In this document: positions 26,565-62,193 of the stretch, piece by piece | How the letters are laid out: each line of letters begins with the position of its first letter | How positions within the stretch are numbered: the first letter of the stretch is position 1 | Assembly (NCBI RefSeq): GCF_014653945.1 | Contig: NZ_BNAU01000001.1 | Location: forward strand, 992,001-1,056,000 | Reading direction: 5' to 3' | Source of the DNA: Amycolatopsis deserti | GTDB taxonomy: Bacteria > Actinomycetota > Actinomycetes > Mycobacteriales > Pseudonocardiaceae | Length of the DNA: 64,000 bases | The notes under the pieces: model-generated | What the model was told of the DNA's origin: nothing | Database searches by the model: none | Seen by the model: only the letters and a program-made list of their open reading frames with translations | Made by a program: the position numbers and the translations under genes

Positions 26565-27563
26565 TCACGGAACCAGAACCGCGGCGCCGGTGACGCGGCC
26601 GGCCGCCAGGTCGGCGAGCGCCTGGTCGGCCTGGTCGAGGGCGTAGGCGGTGGTGACGATCCGGAGGTGGTGCTCGCCGGCGAAGTCCAGGAACTCCCGC
26701 GCGTCGCGGCGCGTGTTGGCGGTGACGCTGCGCAGGGTGCGTTCCTGGAACAGGTGGTCCTGGTAGGTCAGCGGCGGGATCCCGGTCAGGTGGATGCCGG
26801 CGACGGCGAGGGTGCCGCCGCGGTCCAGCGCCGCCAGCGCGGCCGGGACGAGTTCGCCGGCGGGGGCGAACAGGATGGCCGCGTCGAGGGGTTCCGGCGG
26901 CGGCTCGTCGGCGGCGCCGGCCGAAGTCGCGCCGAGGTCGAGGGCCAGCTGCCGGGCCTGGGCGCTGCGGGTCATGACGTGCACGGTGGCCCCTTCGGCG
27001 AGGGCGACCTGGGTGGCGAGGTGGGCGCTGGCGCCGAACCCGTAGACGCCGAGGCGGCCGCCGCGGGGCAGGTCGGCGCGGCGCAGGGCGCGGTAGCCGA
27101 TGATGCCGGCGCACAGCAGCGGGGCGAGTTCGGTGACCGAATAGCCGCCGGGGAGCCGGTGAGCGTAGGCGGCGGGGACGGTGGTGAAACGGGCGTAGCC
27201 GCCGTCGGCGTCCCAGCCGGTGTAGCGGGAATGCGGGCAAAGGTTCTCGGCGCCGCGGCGGCAGTAGGCGCACTCGCCGCAGGTGCCGCGCAGCCAGGCG
27301 GCGCCGACGCGGTCGCCGGCCGCGAAGCCGGTGACGTGCGTGCCGAGGGCCGCGACCTCGCCGACGACCTCGTGCCCGGGCACCACCCCGGCGCGGTGCA
27401 CCGGCAGATCCCCCTCGACGACGTGCAGGTCGGTGCGGCACACCCCGCACGCGAGCACGCGCAGCAACAGTTCGCCGTCGCCGACGTCGGGGATCGCCTC
27501 GTTGTGGAGCTGGAACTCGCGGGTGCCCGGAGGGCCGGGGCGGAACACTCGCCAGGCGTGCAT
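26565..27563 (-). CDS. Zinc-dependent alcohol dehydrogenase (AdhP/AdhA-like)
   Basis: 332 residues. Catalytic zinc ligands in [13 protein letters not shown] and GHEVVGEV; structural zinc cluster [15 protein letters not shown]; Rossmann glycines in [12 protein letters not shown]. This is the medium-chain ADH type that oxidises simple alcohols or reduces aldehydes with NAD(P)H. It is 72 bp downstream of devS on the same strand, with a palindromic DevR-like site between, so it may be read from devS or from its own promoter. Confidence 0.93.
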
Positions 27564-27593
27564 GATCCCAGCCTCGCCGAGCCCACGACGGCC

Positions 27594-27613
27594 GGTAAGG
27601 GCCGAAGGGCCCT
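27594..27613 (-). promoter_or_regulatory. Palindrome between devS and adh (DevR-like or terminator)
   Basis: On the minus strand AGGGCCCTTCGGCCCTTACC includes the inverted repeat AGGGCC-CTTC-GGCCCT. It resembles the site at 17848 and shares the TTACC 3' flank of the 18841/25593 elements. Because it follows the devS stop by about 22 bases it could equally be a terminator hairpin. Confidence 0.4.
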
Positions 27614-27635
27614 GCGGCTCTCGCCGTCCGCGCTC

Positions 27636-29378
<1,743 letters not shown>

Positions 29379-29437
29379 TCACCTTGGCGAACACCAGTCA
29401 AAACCTGCCGCGTGGGGCGAATTCCGCCGCGGGACAG

Positions 29438-29470
29438 GGCACAAAGGCCTCCGCGGTGGGGACACCGGGC
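29438..29470. promoter_or_regulatory. Divergent devS/acg control region with DevR-like half sites
   Basis: Minus strand 29452 to 29438 reads GAGGCCTTTGTGCCC, similar to the GAGGACTTTCGCCCC element. Plus strand 29459 onward reads GGGGACACCGGGCTCTCGC, similar to the GGGAC site before the USP gene. Both are imperfect, so binding is only a proposal. Confidence 0.35.
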
Positions 29471-29537
29471 TCTCGCGGGGAGCCGGGCCGCCGTGGACAG
29501 TGGACCGATCCTGGACCCTTCCCGGCAGGGAGGCCAG

Positions 29538-30452
29538 ATGTCGTTCGACGGCCAGGACCCGGTGCGGGCCGCGCTCGAGGCCGCGATCCGGGCGCCCTCG
29601 CCGCACAACAGCCAGCCGTGGCGGTTCGAGGTGGACGGTCACCGGATCGGCGTGTTCCTGGACCCGGCCCGGATTCTGCGGGTGGCCGACCCCGACTGGC
29701 GGGAGGCGCGGCTGGCGTGCGGAGCGGCGATCCTGAACGTGCGGCTGGCGTTGCGGGCGGCGGGCCGGAACCCGGTGGTGCACCTGTTGCCGCGGTGGGA
29801 CGTGTCGGATCACCTGGCGACGGTGTGGGTGCGGGGCCCGGTGACGCCGGCGCCGGACGATGTGGCGCTGGCGCGGGCGATCGGGTACCGGCGGAGCAAC
29901 CGGCGGGCGTTCACCGCGCGGGAGGTGCCGGTGTGGGTGCGGGAGGCGCTGGTGCGGGCGGCGGCCGAGGAGGGCGCGCACCTGGCGGTGGCTCGGCGGG
30001 CCGGTGAGCTGGACGAGCTGGTGCGGGAGGCCGAACGGGTGCAGCGGGACGATCTGGCGTTCCGGGACGAGCTGCGGCGGTGGACGGCGACCGACGGCTC
30101 GCGGGACGACGGGGTGCCCGCGGCGGCGGCCGGACCGGGCCCGGCGTGGCCGTTCGACCGCAAGCCGCTGGTGGCGGTGCTGTCGTCCTACACGGACACG
30201 CGGCCGCGGCTGGCGCAGGTGCGCGCGGGGCAGGCGTTGCAGCGGGTGCTGCTGCGGGCGACGACGGCGGGGGTGAGCGTGTCGCTGCTGTCGCAGCCGG
30301 TGGAGATCCCGGCGTTGCGGGCGGCGGTGGGCCGGGTGGGGGCCGCACCCGGGAATCCGCAGGTGGTGCTGCGGTTCGGGTACGGGTTCGCGGCGCCGGC
30401 GACGCGGCGGCGCCCGGCCGCGGCGGTGACCCGCCACCCCGGGGACGATTAA
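29538..30452 (+). CDS. acg: Acg-type nitroreductase family protein
   Basis: 304 residues. Opens with AAIRAPSPHNSQPWRFEVDG, the FMN-contact motif of Acg/Rv3131-type proteins, and keeps the YRRSNRRAFTAREVP and GVSVSLLSQPVEIPALR segments. Acg-family genes (Rv2032, Rv3127, Rv3131) are strongly DevR-induced in M. tuberculosis. They bind flavin but lack a clear nitroreductase activity. It heads the same-strand run that ends with the formate dehydrogenase. GGAGG is upstream of the ATG. Confidence 0.9.
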   Translation: MSFDGQDPVRAALEAAIRAPSPHNSQPWRFEVDGHRIGVFLDPARILRVADPDWREARLACGAAILNVRLALRAAGRNPVVHLLPRWDVSDHLATVWVRGPVTPAPDDVALARAIGYRRSNRRAFTAREVPVWVREALVRAAAEEGAHLAVARRAGELDELVREAERVQRDDLAFRDELRRWTATDGSRDDGVPAAAAGPGPAWPFDRKPLVAVLSSYTDTRPRLAQVRAGQALQRVLLRATTAGVSVSLLSQPVEIPALRAAVGRVGAAPGNPQVVLRFGYGFAAPATRRRPAAAVTRHPGDD

Positions 30453-30481
30453 CCGGGGCCGTGGCGGGGCATGTGTGCGGC

Positions 30482-30910
30482 ATGGCGGTTGAAGACTCCT
30501 TGCCCACGCTGCGCCGGCTGGCGGACCTGGCCGAGCTGCTGATCCCCGGGACGGTCGTGTACGTGCGGTACTCGCCGGGCCCGGAGGCCGACGCGGAGCA
30601 CCCGAGCACCGATCACGAGAGCGGGCTGGAGATGCCCGGGGTGTCGGTGAACCCGCTGAACGCGCCGGGCTGGTGGTCGTTGCCGGTGGAGGACTGGCTG
30701 GCGCGGCGGATCGTGCAGTACGCGCACCAGCAGGCGGAGGGCGCGCGGCCGTGGGTGCTGACGGGCAAGGAGATCGACTTCGGGCCGGACAACGAGCCGC
30801 TGCTGGTCGACGTCGAGCCGATCGCGTGGATTTCGGACGATCTGGTGCGGGAGGCGCACGAGCGGTACCACTCCCGGTTGGACGCGGGGCGCGCGACGCA
30901 CGAAGATTGA
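30482..30910 (+). CDS. DUF6098-like small protein
   Basis: 142 residues. The pattern YVRYSPGPEADAEHPSTDHE, then GVSVNPL, then PWVLTGKEIDFGPDNEPLLV fits what I recall of the actinobacterial DUF6098 family. Function unknown. It lies 29 bp after the acg-like gene and 33 bp before the formate dehydrogenase alpha gene, so it is probably in their transcript. Acidic, no signal or membrane segment. Confidence 0.75.
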   Translation: MAVEDSLPTLRRLADLAELLIPGTVVYVRYSPGPEADAEHPSTDHESGLEMPGVSVNPLNAPGWWSLPVEDWLARRIVQYAHQQAEGARPWVLTGKEIDFGPDNEPLLVDVEPIAWISDDLVREAHERYHSRLDAGRATHED

Positions 30911-30943: not shown

Positions 30944-33900
30944 ATGGGCGTGGGTGACTGGGTGCGGTCGTGGCCCGTCTACCGGCAGCTGACCGGCGCC
31001 GACCGGCTGGGGCGGGGCAGCGCGGCGCAGTCCGCGCGGTCGCGCTCCCTGCTGCCCCGCACGGCGTCGGCGGACCGGGTGGTCAACTCGGTGTGCCCGT
31101 ACTGCGCGGTGGGGTGCGCGCAGAAGGTGTACGTCTCCGATGAGCGGGTCGTGCAGATCGAGGGCGATCCGGACTCGCCGATCTCGCGTGGCCGGTTGTG
31201 CCCGAAGGGGTCGGCCAGCAAGCAGCTGGTGACCGGCCCGCAGCGGCTGGACAAGGTGCTCTACCGCGCGCCGTACGCCACGCAGTGGCGGGAGCTGGAC
31301 CTGCCGACCGCGATGGACATGGTGGCCGAGCGGGTGCTGGACGCGCGGCGGCGGGGCTGGCAGGACCACGACGAGCACGGCCGCCCGCTGCGCCGCACGA
31401 TGGGGCTGGCGAGCCTGGGCGGCGCGACGCTGGACAACGAAGAGAACTTCCTGATCAAGAAGCTGTTCACGGCGCTGGGCGCGATCCAGATCGAGAACCA
31501 GGCCCGTATTTGACACTCCGCCACGGTTCCCGGTCTGGGAGCCTCCTTCGGTCGCGGTGGCGCGACGGACTACCAGCAGGATCTCGTCAACTCCGACTGC
31601 GTGATCATCATGGGCTCGAACATGGCCGAGGCCCATCCGGTCGGGTTCCAGTGGGTGGTGGAGGCCAAGGCGCGTGGCGCGAAGGTGTTCCACATCGATC
31701 CGCGGTTCACGCGGACGAGCGCGCTGGCGGACCGGCACGTGCCGTTGCGGGCGGGGTCGGACATCGCGTTCCTGGGCGGGGTGATCAACCACATCCTGTC
31801 CAACGGGCTGGAGTTCCGGGAGTACGTGCGGGCGTACACGAACGCGTCGTTCCTGCTGCGGGAAGATTTCCGGGACACCGAGGACCTGGACGGGTTGTTC
31901 AGCGGGTACGACCCGGCGACCGGGTCCTACGATCCGGCGAGCTGGCACTACGAGAGCGCGCGGCCGCGGGAGGACCGGGGTGCGCGGGCGAAGGAGCAGT
32001 CGGCGCCGGAGCAGCACGGGTCGGGTGGGCCGCCGCTGGAGGGCGGGGCGGACGAGATCGCCGCGGATCCGTCGCTGGAGCACCCGCGGTGCGTGTTCCA
32101 GGTGCTCAAGCGGCATTTCGCGCGGTACACGCCGGAGATGGTGGAGCGGACCTGCGGGGTGCCTGCCGAGGTGTTCGGTGAGGTGTGCCGGGCGTGGACG
32201 GAGAACTCGGGCCGGGAGCGGACGGCGGCGCTGGTGTACAGCGTGGGCTGGACGCAGCATTCGATGGGCGCGCAGTACATCCGGGCGGGGTCGATCATCC
32301 AGCTGCTGCTGGGCAACATCGGCCGCCCCGGTGGCGGGGTGTTCGCGCTGCGCGGGCACGCCTCGATCCAGGGGTCGACGGACATCCCGACGCTGTTCAA
32401 CCTGCTGCCCGGCTACCTGCCGATGCCCGACACCTCGCACGAGAGCATCGGCGAGTACCTGCACCTGGTGCGGGGTGACCGGCAGAAGGGGTTCTGGCGC
32501 AACGCCGACGCCTACCTGGTGTCGCTGCTGAAGGAGTACTGGGGCGAGCACGCCACGGCCGGAAACGACTGGTGCTTCGACTACCTGCCGCGGATCAACG
32601 GCGACCACGGCACCTACCGCACGGTCATGGACATGATCGACGGGAAGGTGTTCGGGTACTTCCTGCTGGGGCAGAACCCGGCGGTGGGATCGGCGCACGG
32701 GCGGTTGCAGCGGCTGGGCATGGCGAACCTGGACTGGCTGGTGGTGCGGGACCTGGCGATGATCGAGAGCGCCACGTTCTGGAAGGACTCGCCGGAGGTG
32801 GAGACCGGGGAGATCGTGCCGGAGCGGTGCCGCACGGAGGTGTTCTTCTTCCCGGCGGCCTCGCACGTGGAGAAGTCGGGCACGTTCACCCAGACCCAGC
32901 GGATGCTGCAGTGGCGGGACAAGGCCGTCGAGCCGAGTGGTGACCAGCGCAGTGAGCTGTGGTTCTTCTACCACCTGGGCCGGATCCTGAAGGAGAAGCT
33001 GGCCGGGTCCACCGACGAGCGGGACCGGCCGCTGCTGGACCTGTGGTGGGACTACCGGATGGAGCACGGCGACGAGCCCTCCGCGGAGGACGTGCTGCGC
33101 CGCATCAACGGGGTGAACCTGCAGACCGGGCGCGCGCTGGACGGCTACCTGGAGCTGAAGGCCGACGGCAGCACGGCGTGCGGCTGCTGGATCTACAGCG
33201 GGGTGTACGCCGACGAGGTGAACCAGGCGGCGCGGCGGAAACCGCACGACGAGCAGGGGCCGTACGAGTCGGAGTGGGGCTGGACGTGGCCGCTGAACCG
33301 GCGCGTGCTCTACAACCGGGCCTCAGCCGATCCGCAGGGCCGTCCGTGGAGCGAGCGCAAGAAGCTCGTGTGGTGGGACGCGGAGCGGGGCGAGTGGACC
33401 GGGCACGACGTGCCGGACTTCGAAAAGACCAAGCCGCCGGACTACCGGCCGGAGCCGGGCGCGTCCGGCCCGGAGGCGTTGCACGGGGACGACCCGTTCA
33501 TCATGCAGGCCGACGGCAAGGCGTGGTTGTTCGCGCCGAACGGGGTGCTGGACGGGCCGCTGCCCACGCACTACGAGCCACACGAGTCGCCGGTGCGCAA
33601 CCCCCTGTACGGGCAGCAGGGCAATCCGGCGCGCAAGGTGTACGCGCGGGTGGACAACCCGTCCAACCCGTCGCCGCCGGAGCCGCACGGTGAGGTGTTC
33701 CCGTACGTGTTCACCGCCGCGCGGCTGACCGAGCACCACACGGCGGGCGGGATGAGCCGTCAGCTGCCCTACCTGGCCGAGCTGCAGCCGGCGTTGTTCG
33801 TCGAGGTGTCGCCGGAGCTGGCCGCCGAGCGCGGGCTGGCGCACCTGGACTGGGCGCACGTGGTCACCAGCAGGGCGGCGGTGGACGCGCGGGTGTTCGT

Positions 33901-34198
33901 GACCGAGCGGATGCGGCCGTTGCGGATCGAGGACCGGGTGGTGCACCAGATCTGGATGCCCTACCACTGGGGGCAGGCCGGCCTGGTGGACGGGGACGTG
34001 GTCAACGACCTGCTGGGCGTGGTGCTGGATCCGAACGTGTTCATCCAGGAGAGCAAGGTCGCCACCTGCGACATCCGGCCGGGTCGCCGCCCGCGGGGCC
34101 GCGATCTGCTGGCCTACCTGGAGGAGTACCGCACGCGGGCGGGGATCACCGTGGAGACCGGCACGCACCTGGACACCACGAGGGGATCGGAGGGGTGA
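30944..34198 (+). CDS. fdhA: Formate dehydrogenase alpha subunit, predicted selenoprotein
   Basis: One frame of 1085 codons, 1084 residues with selenocysteine at residue 190 (UGA at 31511-31513, context ENQARI-Sec-HSATVPGLG). The E. coli FdnG counterpart is NQARV-Sec-HGPTV. A [4Fe-4S] site is formed by Cys51, Cys54, Cys58 and Cys86. His191 follows Sec as required for catalysis. Then the Mo-bisPGD domains (IIMGSNMAEAHPVGFQW; WTQHSMGAQYIR) and the C-terminal cap. No twin-arginine signal precedes the cluster, so the subunit should stay in the cytoplasm. Read as two ORFs it would look broken. The stop overlaps fdhB (TGATG). Confidence 0.94.
31514..31543 (+). promoter_or_regulatory. Bacterial SECIS element of fdhA
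   Basis: The hairpin GGTTCCC-GGTCT-GGGAGCC (31525-31543) is a 7-bp stem with one G-U pair and loop GGUCU. Eighteen nucleotides separate the UGA from the loop, the same distance and loop as in E. coli fdhF as I recall it. Further weak pairing of CGCCAC (31519-31524) with GTGGCG (31557-31562) may extend it. SelB should bind here to insert selenocysteine. Confidence 0.9.
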
Positions 34199-35088
34199 TG
34201 GCGAACAGCTTCTACGGCCCGCTCGACGATCCGGCGGGCGACGCGGGCCACCTCGAGCACCCGCCGCGGATGGGGTTCTTCACCGACACCTCGGTGTGCA
34301 TCGGGTGCAAGGCGTGCGAGGTGGCGTGCAAGGAGTGGAACGGGGTGCCCGACGACGGGTTCGACCTGCTCGGCATGTCGTTCGACAACACCGGGATGCT
34401 CGGTGCGAACTCGTGGCGGCACGTGGCCTTCGTCGAGCAGCCGAAGGCGCCGTCGGTCGATCTCGGGATGCCCTCGTTCGACCTGCCCGGCGCGGGCAGC
34501 GGCGCGGAGAGCCGGACCGACTTCCGGTGGCTGATGAGCTCGGACGTGTGCAAGCACTGCACGCACGCCGGGTGCCTGGACGTGTGCCCGACCGGGGCGT
34601 TGTTCCGCACCGAGTTCGGGTCGGTGGTGGTGCAGCCGGACATCTGCAACGGGTGCGGCTACTGCGTGTCCGGCTGCCCGTACGGGGTGATCGACCGGCG
34701 CGAGGACGACGGCCGGGCCTGGAAGTGCACGCTGTGCTACGACCGGCTGCGGGACGGGATGGAACCGGCGTGCGCGAAGGCGTGCCCGACCGATTCGATC
34801 CAGTTCGGGGAGCTGGACGAGCTGCGGGAGCGGGCCGCGCGCCGGGTGGACGCGCTGCACGAGGCCGGGGTGTCGCAGGCGCGGCTGTACGGGGAGAGCC
34901 CGGCCGACGGCGTGGGCGGCGACGGCGCGTTCTTCCTGCTGCTGGACGAGCCGGAGGTGTACGGGTTGCCGCCGGATCCGGTCGTGCCGACCAAGGACGC
35001 GGGGTCGATGTGGAAGTTCGCGGGCATGGCCGCCTCAGCGTTCGTGGCCGCCGCGGTGTCGGTCTTCTTCGGACGGGGCAGGCGATGA
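34198..35088 (+). CDS. fdhB: Formate dehydrogenase iron-sulfur (beta) subunit
   Basis: 296 residues. Sixteen Cys in four ferredoxin-type clusters: CIGCKACEVAC, CKHCTHAGCLDVCP, CNGCGYCVSGCP, and CTLCYDRL with CAKACP. A C-terminal hydrophobic helix (MAASAFVAAAVSVFF) anchors it to the membrane, as in FdnH/FdoH. It carries electrons from the alpha subunit to the quinone side. Its ATG shares a base with the fdhA stop and its stop overlaps nrfD (ATGA). Confidence 0.94.
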   Translation: MANSFYGPLDDPAGDAGHLEHPPRMGFFTDTSVCIGCKACEVACKEWNGVPDDGFDLLGMSFDNTGMLGANSWRHVAFVEQPKAPSVDLGMPSFDLPGAGSGAESRTDFRWLMSSDVCKHCTHAGCLDVCPTGALFRTEFGSVVVQPDICNGCGYCVSGCPYGVIDRREDDGRAWKCTLCYDRLRDGMEPACAKACPTDSIQFGELDELRERAARRVDALHEAGVSQARLYGESPADGVGGDGAFFLLLDEPEVYGLPPDPVVPTKDAGSMWKFAGMAASAFVAAAVSVFFGRGRR

Positions 35089-36041
35089 CGGGGCGGGGGA
35101 TGGCGGAGCAGGTGGCGGTGCCCAGGGCCGAGTTCCGGTCCTACTACGGGCGGCCGGTGCTCAAGCCGCCGGTGTGGGAGTGGAAGATCCCGGCCTACCT
35201 GTTCACCGGCGGATTGTCGGCGGGGTCGGCGATGCTCGGCGCGGGCGCCGACCTGACCGGGAGGCCGGTGCTGCGGAAGGCGAGCCGCGCCGGGGCGCTG
35301 GGGGCGCTCGTGGCGTCGATGTACCTGCTGGTGGCCGACCTGGGGCGGCCGGAGCGGTTCCTGCACATGCTGCGGGTGGCCAAGCCCAGTTCGCCGATGA
35401 GCGTGGGCACCTGGATCCTCGTCGCCTACGGGCCGGGCGCGGGGCTGGCCGGGATGGCCGAGCTGGTGCCCAAGCGGTGGCAGCGCACGCTGCCCGGGCG
35501 GTTGGTGCGGTGGGCGGCGCGGCCGGCGGGGTGGTCGGCCGCGGCGATCGCGCCCGGGGTGGCCTCCTACACGGCGGTGCTGTTGTCGCAGACCGCGGTG
35601 CCGGCCTGGCACGAGGCCCACCGGCAGTTGCCGTTCGTGTTCACCGGATCGGCGGCGGCCAGCGGCGGTGGGCTGGGCATGGTGTGCGCGCCGGTGTCCG
35701 AGGCCGGTCCGGCGCGGCGGCTGGCGGTGCTCGGCGCGGCGGCGGAGCTGGTGGCGTCGAAGGTGATCGACCAGCGGCTCGGGCTGGTTTCGCAGGCCTA
35801 CACCACCGGGAAGGCGCACCGGCTGCGGAAGTGGTCGGAGTACCTGACCCTGGGCGGCGCGGTGGGCGCGGTGGCGGGCCGACGCAGCCGGGCCGTGCAG
35901 GTGGTGTCGGGGCTGGCTTTGCTGGCGGGCAGCGCGTTGCAGCGGTTCGGGGTGTTCGAGGCCGGGGTGGAGTCCACGAAGGACCCGAAGTACGTGGTGG
36001 TGCCGCAGCGGGCGCGGGTCAGCCGGGCGATCGGGCGCTGA
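35085..36041 (+). CDS. nrfD: NrfD-type membrane subunit of formate dehydrogenase
   Basis: 318 residues, eight or so hydrophobic helices, opening WEWKIPAYLFTGGLSAGSAM as in NrfD/PsrC quinol-interacting subunits. It replaces the heme-b FdnI subunit of enteric formate dehydrogenases and should exchange electrons with menaquinone. No haem ligands are apparent. ATGA overlap with fdhB. The 3' end overlaps the convergent metallo-hydrolase by 23 bp. Confidence 0.93.
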   Translation: MTGRGMAEQVAVPRAEFRSYYGRPVLKPPVWEWKIPAYLFTGGLSAGSAMLGAGADLTGRPVLRKASRAGALGALVASMYLLVADLGRPERFLHMLRVAKPSSPMSVGTWILVAYGPGAGLAGMAELVPKRWQRTLPGRLVRWAARPAGWSAAAIAPGVASYTAVLLSQTAVPAWHEAHRQLPFVFTGSAAASGGGLGMVCAPVSEAGPARRLAVLGAAAELVASKVIDQRLGLVSQAYTTGKAHRLRKWSEYLTLGGAVGAVAGRRSRAVQVVSGLALLAGSALQRFGVFEAGVESTKDPKYVVVPQRARVSRAIGR

Positions 36042-61218: not shown

Positions 61219-62193
61219 ATGCGTGCCGTTGTGCTGCACGAATTCGGGCCACCGGCCAACCTGCGCGTCGCGGACGTGCCCACCCCGCGGCCCGCGGCGG
61301 GTGAGGTCGCGGTCCAGGTCGCCGCGGCCGGCATCCAGTTCCTGGAGACCCAGGTCCGCGCCGGGACGATGCCCGGCGCGCTCGGCGGGGCGCGCCTGCC
61401 GGTGATCCTCGGCAAGGAGATCGCCGGACTGGTCACCGAAGTCGGCCCCGGCGGCGACCCCGCCCTGATCGGCACGCGGGTCCTGGCCAGCACCGCCGGC
61501 CTGGGCGGCTACGCCGAGACCGCCGTCGTCCCCGCCGAAACGCTCGTCCCGGTCAGCGACGGCCTCGGCCTGCCCGAAGCCGTCGCCCTCTACCGGTACG
61601 GCGTCACGGCCCAGGGCCTCATCCGGGCGGCCCGCGTGACCGCCGGTGACCGGGTCCTGGTGCTGGCGGCCGCGGGTGCCGTGGGCACCGTCCTGGTCCA
61701 GTTGCTCAAGCGCGCCGGGGCGACCGTCGTCGCGGCCGCCGGTGGGCAGCGCAAGCTCGCCCTGCTCCGCGAGCTGGGCGCCGGCCACGTCGTGGACTAC
61801 ACGCAGCCCGGCTGGACGGACCAGGCCCGTGCCGGCGGCCCGGTGGACGTGGTCTTCGACCACGTCGGCGGCGCGCCCGGCCGCGACGCGTTCGAGCTGC
61901 TCACCCCGGGCGCCGGACGGCAGATCATCTTCGGCTTCTCCAGCGGCGCGCCGCTGGACGTCCGGCCCGCGGAACTGGTCGGCCGCGGCCTGACCCTGAC
62001 CGGCTTCAGCGCGGGCTTCCTCTGGCGCCGGCCCGCCCTCGCCCGCGAGCTGGCGACCGAGGTCCTGGACCTGGCCGCGGCCGGCCAGCTGACCCCCGTG
62101 ATCGGCCAGCGCTTCCCGCTGGACCGGGCCGCCGACGCGCACGCCGCCATCGAGGCGCGCGGAACCGTCGGCAAGACCCTGCTCATTCCCTGA
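61219..62193 (+). CDS. Zinc-type NADPH:quinone oxidoreductase, second copy
   Basis: 324 residues of the MDR/QOR type. [20 protein letters not shown] Rossmann loop and the C-terminal [20 protein letters not shown]. It follows marR on the same strand and precedes the NmrA-like gene by 32 bp. A quinone or enone response is likely. Confidence 0.93.

Follow-up and report, generated by a model that had tools for sequence, protein, structure and literature searches.

Selenocysteine (Sec) formate dehydrogenases have been described in several other actinobacteria. In Actinomycetospora chiangmaiensis DSM 45062, the selenium-dependent, membrane-bound enzymes FDH1 and FDH2 have a Sec-containing alpha subunit, the removal of formate requires selenite, and low levels of FdhA1, FdhB1, SelA, SelB, and SelD were detected in the proteome (PMC7176365). 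Streptomyces incarnatus has a Sec formate dehydrogenase, FDH-O, together with selABCD (PMC4498112), and formate dehydrogenases with Sec at UAG are reported from the Geodermatophilaceae (PMC5330540). Among bacterial selenoproteins, the formate dehydrogenase alpha subunit and SelD are described as those with the widest distribution (PMC5029168).

In the Amycolatopsis deserti sequence analysed here, a stretch of 64 kb referred to as the window, the genes at 30944-36041 (Table 1) almost certainly encode a molybdopterin formate dehydrogenase with Sec190, which would be made by SECIS/SelB decoding of UGA-31511. This reading, first put forward from the letters of the window alone (the sequence-only reading), is supported by family models, by alignment to the Sec of solved enzymes, by a covarying hairpin, and by the Sec machinery of the genome. 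The claim that the alpha subunit is one frame across the UGA is borne out, as the TGA is the single interruption of the frame 30944-34198, which is open for 189 aa upstream and as far as 34198 downstream. The peptide at the UGA is QARI-U-HSATVPGLG, with His directly after the Sec position. As had been claimed, U190-H191 aligns with the X-His of FdnG (1kqf), and residue 190 also aligns with the X of 1h0h.

Table 1. Features of the A. deserti formate dehydrogenase locus and of the sel cluster
Feature	Location	Strand	Basis or remark
Acg/Rv3131-type nitroreductase	29538..30452	+	NF047509 256 bits (cut-off 199); start by eye
DUF6098 gene, directly upstream of fdhA	30500..30910	+	PF19593 159.5 bits (longer frame from 30080); start provisional
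fdhA (alpha subunit of formate dehydrogenase; 1084 residues including Sec190)	30944..34198	+	family models, Pfam domains
In-frame UGA, predicted Sec codon	31511..31513	+	alignment to residue X of 1kqf_A (FdnG) and 1h0h_A
Predicted SECIS hairpin, 7 pairs	31525..31543	+	RF01989 E 3.9e-6 (below gathering score), covariation, absence in 7/7 Cys homologues
fdhB, iron-sulphur subunit	34195..35088	+	Pfam Fer4_11 and others
NrfD/PsrC-type membrane subunit	35085..36041	+	Pfam NrfD PF03916 61 bits (cut-off 25.8)
selC	C4:374861-374951		82.4 bits, UCA anticodon; ARAGORN tRNA-SeC (tca)
selD	C4 locus L014: 10019-11011	+	392 bits
The same selC in L014 numbering	9952-9862	opposite selD	
selA	L014: 9839-8559	opposite selD	429 bits
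selB	L014: about 8571-6874	opposite selD	248.1 bits TIGR00475 (cut-off 242.25); wing_3 domain

When read through, FdhA scores 1949 bits against NF041513 (cut-off 1400) and 919 bits against TIGR01553 (cut-off 814), and it carries the Pfam domains Molybdop_Fe4S4, Molybdopterin, and Molydop_binding. These two scores, with a Sec or Cys and then His at the metal site, are the features by which a formate dehydrogenase alpha subunit is recognized here. Among the relatives fetched, the closest named ones are Amycolatopsis tucumanensis, at 95% over residues 1-1080, and A. thermalba, at 96% over residues 346-1084 in a fragment.

The start of fdhB, either GTG at 34195 or ATG at 34198, overlaps the stop of fdhA, and the ATG of the membrane subunit overlaps the stop of fdhB (ATGA). 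The fdhB product has a C-terminal hydrophobic stretch, as judged by eye, and scores 177.7 bits against TIGR01582, under the cut-off of 334.7. No Tat-like signal, taken as an RR pair with a hydrophobic stretch after it on hydropathy means, is seen in FdhA, which lacks RR and lacks any hydrophobic stretch before the Fe-S motif, its top 13-residue mean hydropathy being 0.25. RR is present in the leaders of 18 of 80 relatives, whose starts are approximate, with a top hydropathy of 1.32 for any of them and a median of 0.22. The lack of a visible Tat-like signal suggests that the alpha subunit lies on the cytoplasmic side.

The enzyme would consist of an alpha subunit whose Sec190 is at the metal, the beta subunit as an iron-sulphur wire, and the NrfD-type protein as membrane anchor. 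It would oxidize formate to CO2, and the electrons would pass by way of beta to the membrane subunit and probably onward to menaquinone. For the synthesis of the alpha subunit, SelD would make selenophosphate, SelA would convert Ser-tRNA to Sec-tRNA, and the hairpin after UGA-31511 would hold SelB and the Sec-tRNA(UCA), and the ribosome would thereby insert Sec and not terminate.

The Acg-type nitroreductase upstream of fdhA is probably not part of the enzyme. Beside fdhA, the region 26565-30910 has a two-GAF histidine kinase, a zinc alcohol dehydrogenase, the Acg-type nitroreductase, and the DUF6098 gene, and resembles a hypoxia-response neighbourhood. Because a GAF histidine kinase and an Acg-type gene adjoin fdhA, a DosR-type box was sought; its matches number 54 where 106.6 are expected, which is no enrichment. 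A tRNA-Phe called by ARAGORN on the reverse strand at 61798-61893, considered as a possible misread selC, lies within a frame that matches zinc-binding dehydrogenase domains, is without a match in Rfam, and is taken as a false positive.

The genome search proposed with the sequence-only reading found selA, selB, selC, and selD, all clustered on contig C4, while the fdh genes are on contig C1. Absence of selB and selC had been named as counter-evidence, which does not arise since both are present. Each of selA, selB, and selD is above its curated cut-off when scored as a whole protein, SelB having scored 232.4 in the genome search against 248.1 for the whole protein (TIGR00475). There is also an fdhD on contig C2 (175 bits). 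All parts of the bacterial Sec-decoding trait, being selC with UCA, selA, selB, selD, and a downstream hairpin, are found, and Sec incorporation in A. deserti is predicted from these sequences.

In A. bartoniae and A. sacchari, selA and selB immediately precede fdhA, and a divergent selD comes before them. ARAGORN places selC between selD and selA in A. sacchari and reports no selC in its scan of the A. bartoniae locus. At least one of selA, selB, and selD is present in the flanks (up to 6 kb per side) of 60 out of 80 related fdhA loci, with all three at 31 and selD alone at 12.

Of 198 relatives found, 80 were fetched, and 79 of these cover the Sec codon, the remaining one starting downstream of it. 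TGA stands there in 78 of them, and the other, from a Modestobacter metagenome-assembled genome (L057:5478), has TAG; in that genome the best match to selC is a tRNA-Ser and selC was not found by best match. This distribution bears on the reading of UGA-31511 as a genuine stop or a sequencing error, with fdhA as a pseudogene or as two ORFs. Standard translation does give two ORFs, of 189 and 865 aa, as such a reading would have it, but the same stop in 78 of the 79 relatives and TAG in the other, the conservation of the protein and of the GGT loop codon beyond the UGA, and the Sec machinery in the genome make it most improbable. Base-calling error in particular is very unlikely, judging from the sequences compared, because the identical stop codon is present in many other assemblies.

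The gene is also frequent more broadly. In the genus, the enzyme with TGA and a selC above cut-off are found together in 18 of 19 genomes and both are absent from the other (G012); only 17 reach the family cut-off because the enzyme of one genome (G014) is split over two contigs. In the phylum sample, selC is present in 164 of 296 genomes and the enzyme (E 1e-250) in 76, with both in 62, while the order sample has the enzyme in 233 of 348 genomes. The statement that selenoproteins are rare in actinomycetes is therefore contradicted by the selC counts in phylum and genus. Of the 76 phylum genomes with the enzyme, 14 have no selC match, two of them without an in-frame stop and 12 with TGA, these 12 being assemblies of 30 to 640 contigs searched for selC with stricter filters. 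Some phylum matches have two or three stops, and the idea that these might be double-Sec enzymes is set aside; most end at profile position 1052 or later, and the extra stop is probably the terminal one. One enzyme sequence (G289:C184:361-3447) has three internal TGA codons, of which the extra ones may be a terminal stop, an error, or decay.

The predicted SECIS hairpin pairs 31525-31531 with 31537-31543 around the loop GGUCU at 31532-31536. It had been described as a 7-bp hairpin starting 18 nt after the UGA; the hairpin and its loop stand, but 18 nt is the distance to the loop, and the stem starts at 11 nt. In E. coli fdhF there are also 18 nt from the UGA to GGTCT, in a 48-nt stretch that is 100% identical to annotated fdhF in three records. 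GGTCT occurs 46 times on the forward strand and 60 times on the reverse strand of the window, and only the copy at 31532-31536 has a stem of at least 6 pairs. Rfam SECIS_3 (RF01989) matches 31508-31566 with 33.3 bits, short of the gathering score of 63, and the scan of the whole window has no match at gathering level. The folding energy is uninformative by itself (z -0.15; 86 of 200 shuffles fold equally well).

Comparison between sequences is more telling. All 79 relatives retain at least 6 stem pairs. The bases at 31528 and 31540 are each the third of their codon, and in 80/80 sequences (the window and 79 relatives) they make a standard pair (UA 45, CG 18, UG 14, GC 2, GU 1), compared with a mean of 80.1% in shuffles, where 100% is reached in 0 of 20000. 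When the variable third positions are taken two by two (153 combinations), two combinations pair in at least 95% of the sequences, and this one alone reaches 100%. Every one of the 80 has GGT as its loop codon, although GGT is 12.9% of the Gly codons across these frames; as the sequences are related, counts over the 80 are not independent.

In 22 sequences chosen from the 80 (21 distinct), the share of paired stem cells is 93.9% and falls to 34.7-62.6% once the stem is slid, and three of five covariation measures exceed all shuffles (0/500 reach them). The number of pairs with both sides changed (2) is not above shuffles in these 22, where 335/500 reach the value, and further pair types are in partial excess only (16/500). 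The outermost stem pair is unformed in 9 of 21 sequences. Taken as a whole, the comparative evidence for the predicted hairpin is strong.

U31527 is invariant, and the base opposite is G in 47/80 and A in 33/80, so that it is able to pair; the corresponding U of the E. coli SECIS is bulged. The description of the element as canonical is right for the loop and the distance, and fails for this U and for the SECIS_3 score below cut-off. It is tentatively possible, though somewhat doubtful, that an actinobacterium from an aerobic genus, Amycolatopsis, here holds the Sec subunit of a formate dehydrogenase on the cytoplasmic side by means of an NrfD anchor and has a SECIS variant in which the U is paired, so that the actinobacterial SelB would read an element somewhat different from that of E. 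coli.

Homologues with Cys or TAG at the Sec position serve as natural controls. The seven Cys homologues, all of those with no stop among the matches listed in the order sample, have TGC (six) or TGT (one), and at the aligned place they have stems of 0-2 pairs and no GGUCU loop (7/7). There is no selC match at E 1e-8 in six of their genomes, one of which (G461) is weak evidence because it is 85% complete and in 460 contigs; what matches in the seventh (G358) is a tRNA-Ser. Six TAG homologues, out of 21 TAG-only sequences among the matches listed, have stems of 7 pairs, with the loop GGUCU in five and AGUCU in the sixth. Each of their six genomes contains a tRNA-Sec match whose anticodon is CTA, called Pyl by ARAGORN. 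The Cys group (61-64% identity to the window protein) and the TAG group (62-66%) are about equally far from it, so that distance does not explain the loss of the hairpin. Across the UGA, UAG, and Cys versions in these sequences, codon, hairpin, and tRNA change together. That UGA is instead read as Cys or Trp by near-cognate readthrough, without Sec, would fit with the existence of Cys homologues, but it would not explain why those examined have no hairpin and their genomes no selC, and has very little probability.

All 21 of the TAG-only sequences among the matches listed carry one family label (f84), which would be the Geodermatophilaceae, the family of the Modestobacter relative, whose UAG-Sec formate dehydrogenases were reportedly the subject of work by Mukai in 2016. 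One UAG-Sec genome (G390) has two tRNA-Sec genes (G390:C17:1173-1263 and G390:C11:15836-15927). The one with CTA adjoins selA, selB, and selD, while for the one with TCA none of these is present within the 9 kb examined; the sole enzyme match in this genome uses TAG.

The gene is common among relatives of A. deserti, and the find is an ordinary one; the content of the window alters nothing in existing knowledge. It does correct a gene split in two by default translation, and it shows the complete Sec gene set for the A. deserti genome. Occurring in UGA, UAG, and Cys versions, the enzyme provides a clean natural test of SECIS function.

FdnG of E. coli (1kqf) is like FdhA in Sec position and in family, by sequence. 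FdnG is exported by Tat and its membrane subunit FdnI is a cytochrome b, whereas FdhA has no visible Tat-like signal and the membrane subunit here is NrfD. The actinobacterial family is already named as NCBIfam NF041513 (formate_DH_Act), whose cut-off FdhA passes, and since Sec formate dehydrogenases are published for Actinomycetospora, Streptomyces, and Geodermatophilaceae, that of A. deserti is of a known kind. In the Geodermatophilaceae the family and the hairpin are the same, with UAG and a CUA anticodon there and UGA and UCA here. S. incarnatus FDH-O likewise has an in-frame UGA, a SECIS, and selA-D in the genome, but its sel cluster is near the enzyme gene rather than on another contig (PMC4498112). 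FDH1 and FDH2 of A. chiangmaiensis, as described in PMC7176365, are similar in the length of the alpha subunit, at 1078 and 1089 residues against 1084 here; SelA and SelB are given there under the FDH1 cluster, unlike the separate contigs of the fdh and sel genes in A. deserti.
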